The notes beneath the pieces are model-generated. The model searched no databases and was not told the origin of the DNA. It was given only the letters and a program-made list of their open reading frames with translations. From Buchnera aphidicola (Diuraphis noxia) (GTDB lineage Bacteria > Pseudomonadota > Gammaproteobacteria > Enterobacterales > Enterobacteriaceae), in assembly GCF_001700895.1 (NCBI RefSeq), contig NZ_CP013259.1, positions 124,001-188,000 on the forward strand: DNA of 64,000 nt. The letters are read 5' to 3'. Both the position numbers and the translations under genes were made by a program. Positions 1 to 2,918 of this stretch are shown here, piece after piece; position 1 is the first letter of the stretch, and every line of letters begins with the position of its first letter.

Positions 1-1541
1 TTTCATGTTGGTTATATACTAAAAAAAGTTTATATGAAAAAATTAAATTTTATTTGAATTTTGTTCAATTAATATTAAATCAAAAATTGCAATTGTTAAT
101 ATTAGTGCCGTATATTAAACATATACATGTAATTATATTTTTTTTAAAAAAATTTTTTGATGTTGGTATCGATATTATTCATTCAAATTTAACACATACT
201 CAGTATTTCAAGAACTGGATAAAAATAAAAAATAGAGAAAGTTCTATTATTGTTGGTACGAAAAAAAGTGTTTTTTTGCCTTTTTTTAAATTAGGTGCTA
301 TTCTTATTTTTGAAGAACATAACTTAAATTATAAGAATACAGAAAAATGTAGATATCATGTTAAAGATATAGCAATATTAAGAGCATATAAAGAAAAAAT
401 ACCTATAATTTTAGATTCAGAAACTCCTTCATTAAAAACTTTACATAATATTTTATGTAGAAAATATTTTAATATAAATATTAAAAAATATGATTATTCA
501 GTACAATTTCATAAAAATATTATCAATCTTAAACGAGAAAAAGTAAAACTTGGTCTTTCTCTTTCTTTGATTAATCAGATTATTCAACATTGTAAGACAG
601 GACAGGCGTTATTAATTTTTAATAAAAAAAGTTTTTTTTTCTTTGTGTTAAAGTGCAGTCAATGTCAATGGATATTTACATGTCATAATTGTAAAACTTA
701 TTTTGAATCTAACGAGTATAAAAATATTTTATTTTGTAAATTTTGTTTAATAAAAATTAAAAAACCATTATTTTGTTATAAATGTTATTCTTTATCTTTA
801 ATGGTAATAAATTTAAGTATAGAAAAATTAAAAAATATGCTACAGGATATTTTTCCTGATAAAAAAATATTTTTTTTGTTAAATAAAAACCACATAAAGA
901 AAGAAATGTTTGATAAAACTTGTTTTGATTTTTTATTTTCTACTCCTTGTGTTATTTTTTCAACAGAAGAAATTGTTCAAAATTATTATTTTCCATATGT
1001 AACGCTAATTAGTTTACTTTGTATTGATAATTATTTTTTTTCTTTTGAATTTCGGAATATGGAATATTTTTTACAATTGTACTTTAATTTGATTCAATTA
1101 ACTAAGTATAAAAAAAATTTACCTACAATTTCAGTACAAACATCATATTTAGAAAAGTCAATTTTAAATAATTTATCTGATAATAAGTATCACTTTTTTG
1201 CTAATGAAATATTATTAATAAGAAAAAAATTTCTTTTACCACCTTGGTGTTGTCAAATTATGATTTATTGTGAAAATGTAAATCCTGAAAAAAATATTAT
1301 TTTTTTACAATTAATCAAAAATATGTTAAAAAAAAAATCTAATAAATATAATATTATTTTGTGGTTTTTTGGTCCAAATCCAGTTTTTTCATTAAAAACA
1401 AAAAAAATAATTTACCAATTACTAATTCAATCTTTGTCTCGTATGCAACTTAATAAGTTATTAAACGAATGTATACAAACAATAAATTTATTTTCTATTT
1501 CTAAAACAATAAAATGGTTTGTAGATATTGAACCTAATTAA
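1..1541 (+). CDS. priA: PriA-like primosomal protein N', 5' partial, ATPase motifs eroded
   Basis: PriA normally reloads the replicative helicase at stalled forks. The reading frame is open from base 3, so the gene starts outside the window; the TTG at 54 is only an internal codon. The visible ~512 codons align collinearly with the helicase and C-terminal domains of E. coli PriA. All eight zinc-binding cysteines are kept as four CxxC pairs (654-785). The ATPase motifs are not: the Walker A segment GVTGSGKT is replaced by KKSLYEKI (21-44), DEEH reads FEEH (309-320), and motifs V (about 960-995) and VI (about 1074-1115, AGRAGR in E. coli) are unrecognisable. Identity rests on the zinc region, the KIPIILDSETPSLKTL stretch and the C-terminal WFVDIEP ending. 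It probably cannot hydrolyse ATP; it may be structural or an early pseudogene. Confidence 0.85.
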   Translation, partial: SCWLYTKKSLYEKIKFYLNFVQLILNQKLQLLILVPYIKHIHVIIFFLKKFFDVGIDIIHSNLTHTQYFKNWIKIKNRESSIIVGTKKSVFLPFFKLGAILIFEEHNLNYKNTEKCRYHVKDIAILRAYKEKIPIILDSETPSLKTLHNILCRKYFNINIKKYDYSVQFHKNIINLKREKVKLGLSLSLINQIIQHCKTGQALLIFNKKSFFFFVLKCSQCQWIFTCHNCKTYFESNEYKNILFCKFCLIKIKKPLFCYKCYSLSLMVINLSIEKLKNMLQDIFPDKKIFFLLNKNHIKKEMFDKTCFDFLFSTPCVIFSTEEIVQNYYFPYVTLISLLCIDNYFFSFEFRNMEYFLQLYFNLIQLTKYKKNLPTISVQTSYLEKSILNNLSDNKYHFFANEILLIRKKFLLPPWCCQIMIYCENVNPEKNIIFLQLIKNMLKKKSNKYNIILWFFGPNPVFSLKTKKIIYQLLIQSLSRMQLNKLLNECIQTINLFSISKTIKWFVDIEPN

Positions 1542-1646
1542 CATCTTAAATTATTTTTAATAAAGAAATATTTTTAAAAATTATATTTTATCAGAATAAG
1601 TTATATGAAAAGTATTTTTGATATTAACTTAAAAAAAGGTTTTTTA

Positions 1647-2918
1647 ATGAGTCATTTTAATTTAATTAATACATTATATGATAGAGGTTTAATTTCTCAT
1701 ATTACGCATAAAGATAATTTACAAAAACTTCTTCAAAGTAATTTTATATCACTGTATTGTGGTTTTGATCCTACAGAAGAAAGTTTACATGTAGGTCATC
1801 TTTTACCTTTAATTGTACTGAAAAGATTTCAAATGTTAGGACATAAACCTATTGTATTAATAGGAGGAGCTACAAGTTTAATTGGAGATCCTAGTTTTAA
1901 ACAAAAAGAGAGAGAATTTTACTGTAGTAAGAATATTGATATTTGGACAAAAAAAATTAGTAAACAAATTTCTTGTTTTTTAGATTTTAATTGTGGTCGA
2001 AATAGTGCTTTGTTATTAAATAACAATAAATGGTTTAAAAAAATCAATATTTTATCGTTTTTACGTGAAATTGGGAAATATTTTTCAATTAACACGATGA
2101 TTAATCGTTCATCAGTTAAACAACGTATATCAAGACCAGATCAAGGTATTTCATTTACAGAATTTTCTTATAATTTATTACAAGCATATGATTTTTTTCT
2201 TTTAAATCAAATGCACGAAGTAAACTTACAAATTGGAGGAGCGGATCAGTGGGGTAATATTTCCGCAGGAATGCATTTAATAAATCGTAAATCTAAGAAA
2301 GAAGTGTATGGTTTGACAGTACCACTTCTTACTCAGTCTAATGGGGTTAAATTCGGTAAAACAGAATCAGGAACAATTTGGTTAGATGCTAATAAAACTA
2401 GCCCCTATAAATTTTATCAATTTTGGATGAATATAGAAGATAAAAATATTTATAATTTTTTAAAAATGTTTACTTTCATCAGTTTATCAGAAATTAAAAA
2501 AAAAGAAGAACAAAAATATATTGATAATAAAATTATTGAAGACAAAACTGATCTTGCAAAAAATATTACTCGTTTTATACATGGTGAAGAAAAATTATTA
2601 GCAGTGGAAAGAATTACAGAATTTCTTTTTTTAAAAGGTCTCCAAAATATTACAGAATCTGATCTTCAACAGTTAAAGCAAGATGGTATTCCCGCAATCA
2701 AGGTAGAAAAAAAAATAAAAGATTTACAAGAAGCATTAGTATTAGCTTCATTAGCTACTTCTAGAACACAAGCTAAAAATATGATTTTTGCAAATGCTAT
2801 ATCTATTAATACTCAAAAAATTAAAATCAACCATCTATTTAAAAATCAAGATAAATTATTTGGAAAATTTACTTTATTATCTAGAGGAAAAAAAAATCAC
2901 TGTTTGATTTGCTGGTAA
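1647..2918 (+). CDS. tyrS: Tyrosyl-tRNA synthetase
   Basis: Charges tRNA-Tyr in the cytoplasm. Class I signatures are present: HVGH near residue 48 and KFGKT near residue 235, with a C-terminal S4-like RNA-binding domain from about residue 355. I chose the ATG at 1647, giving 423 residues (E. coli 424), because MSHFNLINTL matches the E. coli N-terminus and an A-rich AAAGG lies upstream; the in-frame ATG at 1605 would add 14 unmatched residues. The gene converges on sufA with only 5 bp between the stop codons. Confidence 0.97.
   Translation: MSHFNLINTLYDRGLISHITHKDNLQKLLQSNFISLYCGFDPTEESLHVGHLLPLIVLKRFQMLGHKPIVLIGGATSLIGDPSFKQKEREFYCSKNIDIWTKKISKQISCFLDFNCGRNSALLLNNNKWFKKINILSFLREIGKYFSINTMINRSSVKQRISRPDQGISFTEFSYNLLQAYDFFLLNQMHEVNLQIGGADQWGNISAGMHLINRKSKKEVYGLTVPLLTQSNGVKFGKTESGTIWLDANKTSPYKFYQFWMNIEDKNIYNFLKMFTFISLSEIKKKEEQKYIDNKIIEDKTDLAKNITRFIHGEEKLLAVERITEFLFLKGLQNITESDLQQLKQDGIPAIKVEKKIKDLQEALVLASLATSRTQAKNMIFANAISINTQKIKINHLFKNQDKLFGKFTLLSRGKKNHCLICW

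Follow-up and report, generated by a model that had tools for sequence, protein, structure and literature searches.

The 64,000-nucleotide stretch of the Buchnera aphidicola (Diuraphis noxia) genome analysed here (the window) opens within priA, the gene of the replication restart protein PriA, in the gene order nth-priA-tyrS, where nth and tyrS are names that we assigned ourselves. The frame at its start runs for 512 codons without interruption and ends in TAA. Inspection of the sequence upstream of the window found codons 1-215 open as well, and the full gene is intact at 727 codons from a GTG start at G000:C1:123358, within an open frame of 732 amino acids. Judged by its sequence, this PriA is without a recognizable ATP site and has lost its motor, and the gene is maintained across most of the genus.

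The first-pass annotation of the window had aligned more than 500 codons collinearly with PriA, and the frame is indeed collinear over its whole length with all five solved PriA sequences that it matched, the best of them pairing query 2-511 with 4nl4 chain H 234-744 at E 1.8e-84. The fold, an eight-cysteine zinc region and the score with TIGR00595 (259.1 bits against a cut-off of 230.35, the other 13 NCBIfam rows staying below their own cut-offs) all place the protein in the PriA family. When the frame was scanned with Pfam the C-terminal domain alone passed, and the DEAD and PriA Cys-rich models were not listed at E ≤1. The domain borders used here are taken to apply to this protein.

Table 1. 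Features of priA and its downstream neighbour, in window positions unless a contig coordinate is given.
Feature	Position	Strand	Remarks
priA, 3' part	3..1541	+	codons 216-727 and stop; TIGR00595 over cut-off
Former Walker A / motif I	21..44	+	KKSLYEKI in place of GVTGSGKT; Lys kept, glycine loop lost
Former motif II	309..320	+	FEEH in place of DEEH; Asp lost, EEH kept
Former motif III region	411..431	+	LDSETPS in place of LGSATPA
Cysteine-rich region	648..800	+	Cys codons 654, 663, 681, 690, 735, 744, 774, 783
Former motif V	957..992	+	FSTEEIVQNYYF in place of IGTQMLAKGHHF; EEIVQNYYF at 966-992
Former motif VI	1089..1115	+	LIQLTKYKK; QxxGRxGR lost
PriA C-terminal domain (PF18074)	1230..1538	+	Pfam 39.1 bits, cut-off 26.9
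priA codons 1-215 (3' binding domain, winged helix)	G000:C1:123358-124002, upstream of window		open, same genome
tyrS	1605..2918	+	neighbour; control gene; single open frame in 36/36 genus genomes

Motor motifs and zinc site

The motif readings of the first-pass annotation, including the absence of motif VI, were all recovered where it had placed them. Its statement that every ATPase/helicase motif has been lost stands for the Walker A glycine loop, the motif II Asp and motif VI, but goes too far for the Walker A Lys, the EEH of motif II, the T-P of motif III and the motif V Thr, which remain. The glycine loop, the Asp and motif VI are gone in all 36 genomes of the genus, with nine broken copies read from their pieces, so a pseudogene peculiar to this strain can be ruled out. 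Of the 27 unbroken copies, 96% have K in the Lys column of Walker A, 93-100% retain EEH, 100% T-P and 96% the motif V Thr, while the listed P-loop glycines, the motif II Asp, the motif V Gln, Lys and Gly and the motif VI residues are retained in 0-11%. Among the 120 listed of 130 database matches, Walker A and motif VI are both missing from all 46 Buchnera-like proteins; each is found in 73 of the 74 other homologues, and the single one of these without Walker A (P0053) is annotated as coming from a Donacia endosymbiont. In an AlphaFold model, helix 225-241 runs into the former Walker A segment (residues 222-229), in the place of the phosphate loop. The Walker A, motif II Asp and motif VI arginines of an active SF2 DNA helicase are not found here; what is found, degraded ATPase motifs in a maintained gene, matches a pseudohelicase of the kind described for Deinococcus PriA. 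General decay of helicases in this genome is ruled out for its DEAD-family matches (read by us as DeaD, Mfd, RecD and SecA, two of them below the Pfam cut-off), which retain the Walker A loop in four of four cases.

The eight zinc cysteines that had been reported at 654-785 are present. The full set also occurs throughout the comparison, in 36 of 36 genomes of the genus, 13 of 13 decayed copies in small genomes elsewhere in the family, and 11 of 11 intact controls. Of the same listed matches, the eight-cysteine pattern fits 46 of 46 Buchnera-like proteins against 51 of 74 others, and this last count shows the pattern to be too strict for distant PriAs. Across 114 deeply conserved columns the zinc cysteines are kept at 8 of 8 positions, the motif residues at 8 of 27 and the other non-zinc residues at 35 of 79. 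Zinc cysteines and motif residues differ in retention (p 0.0005), but preferential loss of the motif residues over the other residues is not supported (Fisher p 0.26), and thus it is the zinc site that is exceptional and not the motifs that are lost beyond the rest. Nor is there support for new residues having become fixed under special constraint where motif residues were lost, since a new residue (in ≥85% of copies) occupies 11 of 44 lost columns compared with 31% of all columns.

Decay of the PriA motifs extends to further small genomes in the family. G040, G082, G093, G098 and G122 have lost Walker A, and G050, G101 and G150 have lost motif VI but retain most of Walker A. An rpoB tree, many of whose forks are weak, requires a minimum of two changes to account for the loss of motif VI. 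The PriA of G136 (contig of 258 kb) was read partly for motifs, and with UGA taken as Trp no Walker A is seen by eye. This genome has in-frame UGA in rpoB (L160) and in priA (L080), whose frame is 598 amino acids when so read, and its sequence suggests that UGA is read there as an amino acid.

Selection and loss

The ratio of nonsynonymous to synonymous substitution rates (dN/dS) was estimated by pairwise maximum likelihood, using our own scripts, in seven close pairs of intact copies, with dS above 1 in some pairs. It is 0.083-0.183 for priA, 0.056-0.087 for tyrS and 0.058-0.209 for nth. A whole-gene value near 1, which would speak against a non-catalytic PriA that is kept, did not occur, and this proposal of the first-pass annotation is supported. 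By domain the ratio is 0.05-0.20 in lobe 1, 0.06-0.18 in lobe 2, 0.00-0.19 in the zinc region (51 codons) and 0.03-0.33 in the C-terminal domain, where one of the seven pairs gives the 0.33, a value that does not fall clearly under 1. The winged helix is noisy, and its values above 1 in two pairs, which come from 32 codons, are indistinguishable from 1. The two helicase lobes and the zinc region are under similar constraint, and the looser lobes that had been envisaged beside a constrained zinc module are not seen. In a neutral simulation at a distance of 0.49, the dS of the closest pair, each of 40 runs gave at least 35 in-frame stops, against zero in priA of the closest intact pair. These rates indicate that priA is under purifying selection and not merely dying. 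As a separate observation, the winged helix is mostly deleted in frame in eight genus genomes (L027-L032, L034, L035), leaving proteins of 662-667 amino acids.

In the 36 genus genomes priA is broken in nine, tyrS in none and nth in one; for these counts G022 was taken as one frame on account of its length. The nth gene beside priA is split into two frames in G014 (L015). Eight of the nine broken priA copies have a single break beside an A or T run of 9-12 bases, and G008 has several breaks. The same homopolymer run is frameshifted in G004 and G009 and another in G007 and G019, pointing to slippage hot spots. Relative to tyrS, dN is 1.64-2.51 in the nine broken copies, overlapping the 1.55-2.37 of 11 intact pairs. 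As the broken copies evolve no faster, the breaks could be recent, the product could still be made, or some of the breaks could be sequencing errors. Rescue of frameshifts by transcription slippage was not seen in one study (PMC5574713), and a demonstrated case is cited in PMC3164680.

In six Buchnera-type genomes (G079, G144, G045, G094, G053 and G134) priA was not found, and no piece of it lies near tyrS. Their best PriA-family matches are weak (E 7e-20 to 3e-4) and are taken as Mfd. These six were assigned as Buchnera-type by DnaC and its neighbours, and G056, which has DnaC without the neighbours, was left out.

Partner proteins and interfaces

PriB is over the cut-off in none of the 36 genus genomes. 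Each has one match of 24.6-28.3 bits, in a frame of 172-204 amino acids, that we take as SSB, and the sub-cut-off match in this genome was read in the same way. The interval between rpsF and rpsR is without priB in all four genus genomes inspected, this one included. PriC was found in the free-living control and in none of 25 small genomes, eight of them of the genus. DnaT is present in 36 of 36 genus genomes, as is an adjoining DnaC-like frame, and both were read directly in this genome, which therefore has the proteins for DnaT-DnaC dependent loading of DnaB and not the PriB of the PriA-PriB pathway. Its SSB has the C-terminal sequence DFDDEIPF. Four further genomes with priA adjoining tyrS (G125, G065, G126 and G087), Buchnera-type by gene order, have DnaT, and priA without DnaT was met in 0 of 40 Buchnera-type genomes, a count that like the related ones is not phylogenetically independent. 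Of the genomes lacking priA, G079, G144, G045 and G094 also lack DnaT.

Rep-family matches of 723-1072 bits were obtained in all 15 Buchnera-type genomes tested, five of which exceed the cut-off of 951; four matches, including that of this genome, are reported with one TAA each. Most other small genomes score about 500-590, and these matches are probably UvrD, because the second match of the free-living control (601) lies at a similar level. The exceptions are G050 and G088, which are over the cut-off, G068, which has broken pieces, and G136, which has none.

In the E. coli complex PriB docks on D438, S481, T482 and H483 of PriA (PMC10175261). Across the 36 genus sequences position 438 is acidic in one, S481 is kept in nine, and neither T482 nor H or Q at 483 is kept in any. 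Outside the genus, position 438 is acidic in seven of seven PriB-bearing sequences compared with one of nine from small genomes without PriB. PriB is over the cut-off in five of six small genomes with intact PriA and in one of 13 outside the genus with decayed PriA; a correlation of PriB loss with ATPase loss is thereby suggested, and with only two independent pairs on the rpoB tree we do not claim it. The linker of E. coli DnaT binds PriB (PMC13377028). In this genome the linker has 16 amino acids and a net charge of +3, against 31 amino acids and -3 in the free-living reference G036, and over the 36 copies the charge averages +1.1 with a range of -3 to +4. DnaT is 55% identical to that of G036 over its C-terminal part and 29% identical over its N-terminal part. 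Of the PriA positions taken as contacts for the SSB tail, the unbroken genus copies keep W83 in 27 of 27, R698 in 22, Y87 in 12 and Q702 in seven.

Possible routes of replication restart

On balance the evidence tips, if only somewhat, towards Buchnera PriA being a pseudohelicase under purifying selection that serves as an ATP-free platform for recruiting DnaT and DnaB-DnaC without PriB or PriC. The motor loss is read from sequence, and the platform is what we infer from it. PriA would still bind forks, and its zinc module, the shell of the helicase lobes and the C-terminal domain would expose a docking site for DnaT, which would then deliver DnaB-DnaC to the lagging strand. This would be an ATP-independent, stripped-down PriA-DnaT-DnaC restart, and unwinding, if any, would come from another enzyme, the Rep-like helicase being a candidate. 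With PriB unfound in 36 genomes and the docking residues lost, the PriB contacts that the first-pass annotation had offered are unlikely. Because its PriA is dead and neither PriB nor PriC was found, Buchnera is also unlikely to follow any of the three routes in the form described for E. coli. A wider proposal, that this is a fourth restart route in which the zinc module alone opens the DnaT site, DnaB is loaded via DnaT and DnaC without PriB or PriC, the PriA, DnaT and PriB interfaces were reshaped together, and the motor was lost more than once in small symbiont genomes, is more tentative and falls short of an even chance.

The closest precedent is the PriA pseudohelicase of Deinococcus radiodurans, which like that of Buchnera has no matching ATPase motifs, no clear PriB and a kept gene; its Walker A Lys is Arg, its motif I and II matches are poor, and DnaT is also absent (PMC4504706). 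Buchnera differs in that the glycine loop, the motif II Asp and motifs V and VI are gone, the Lys is mostly kept, DnaT and DnaC are present, and it belongs to the Enterobacteriaceae, where relatives have intact PriA. The domain order, the zinc cysteines and the C-terminal domain are common to Buchnera PriA and to that of E. coli, including the K230R form (priA300). The K230R form is helicase-dead and still assembles primosomes by the PriB route, but needs PriB to work well, and in Buchnera neither PriB nor PriC was found. With the PriA-PriB-DnaT preprimosome of E. coli (PMC10175261, PMC13377028) Buchnera has PriA, DnaT, DnaC and the SSB tail in common, and differs from it in the missing priB and in the loss of the docking residues.

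Direct PriA-DnaT-DnaC loading is the most economical reading, and direct DnaB contact is its main rival. A non-catalytic PriA could have been kept for a partner other than DnaT, either by binding DnaB, as proposed for Deinococcus, or for SSB contact and fork protection. The D. radiodurans protein, without ATPase, binds forks and DnaB in a species without clear priB or dnaT (PMC4504706), and other small genomes with decayed PriA, G040, G098 and G122 among them, keep the eight cysteines although they show neither a match to DnaT nor a PriB above the cut-off. The absence of any Buchnera-type genome with priA and without DnaT argues in the other direction and fits a DnaT contact, and the SSB-tail positions are only partly kept, so we regard this explanation as rather unlikely. 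It is less probable still that priA is under relaxed constraint, heading for loss and open by chance. In its favour are the broken copies, the absence of priA from six Buchnera-type genomes, the deleted winged helices, the C-terminal value of 0.33 and a priA dN of 1.5-2.5 times that of tyrS. Against it, dN/dS is comparable to that of nth, the closest intact pair has no stop although 9 of 36 copies are broken, the broken ones show no faster evolution than the intact, and the zinc cysteines are never lost. We give very little credence to the idea that an altered site still binds or hydrolyses ATP. The Lys column of Walker A and EEH are kept, and a precomputed DEAD-domain label is attached to 3 of the 46 Buchnera-like proteins among the listed matches, but the glycines of the P-loop, the Asp of motif II, the Gln and Gly of motif V and the arginines of motif VI are gone and the modelled helix enters the place of the phosphate loop.

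Several points weigh against the proposed DnaT platform. PriA residues D17 and G37, which belong to the 3'-end pocket, are lost in 36 of 36 genus genomes, and their loss could weaken fork recognition. The charge shift of the DnaT linker may reflect AT bias alone. G093, small and without PriB, retains Asp at 438, and G068 has an intact ATPase site yet no PriB. As other small genomes with decayed PriA, such as G040, G098 and G122, have no match to DnaT, DnaT cannot explain every decayed PriA. DnaT is retained without detectable priA in G053 (L180) and G134 (L181), and so may have a PriA-independent role. With nine of 36 copies broken and six genomes without the gene, priA is dispensable in some lineages. 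The PriA ATPase is unnecessary for the PriB route in E. coli (PMC9713433, PMC10175261), and E. coli with helicase-dead PriA is viable and recombination-proficient (PMC4504706). However, priA300 strains that also lack priB are severely defective, and losing both priB and priC is lethal (PMC9713433), so the Buchnera set of parts would be expected to fail in E. coli.

In the accessible excerpts of the literature on Buchnera and PriA we found no report of motor loss. The annotation of the Buchnera protein as replication restart helicase PriA is unsupported by its sequence, which likewise gives no support to its listing as an ATP-dependent factor (PMC6389857). Why PriA has a motor is an old question. 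Here a clade, along with other small genomes, appears to have dropped the motor in nature and kept the protein, in a background where neither PriB nor PriC was found and in which E. coli is severely defective, and Buchnera PriA thus opens a direct test of a minimal restart platform.
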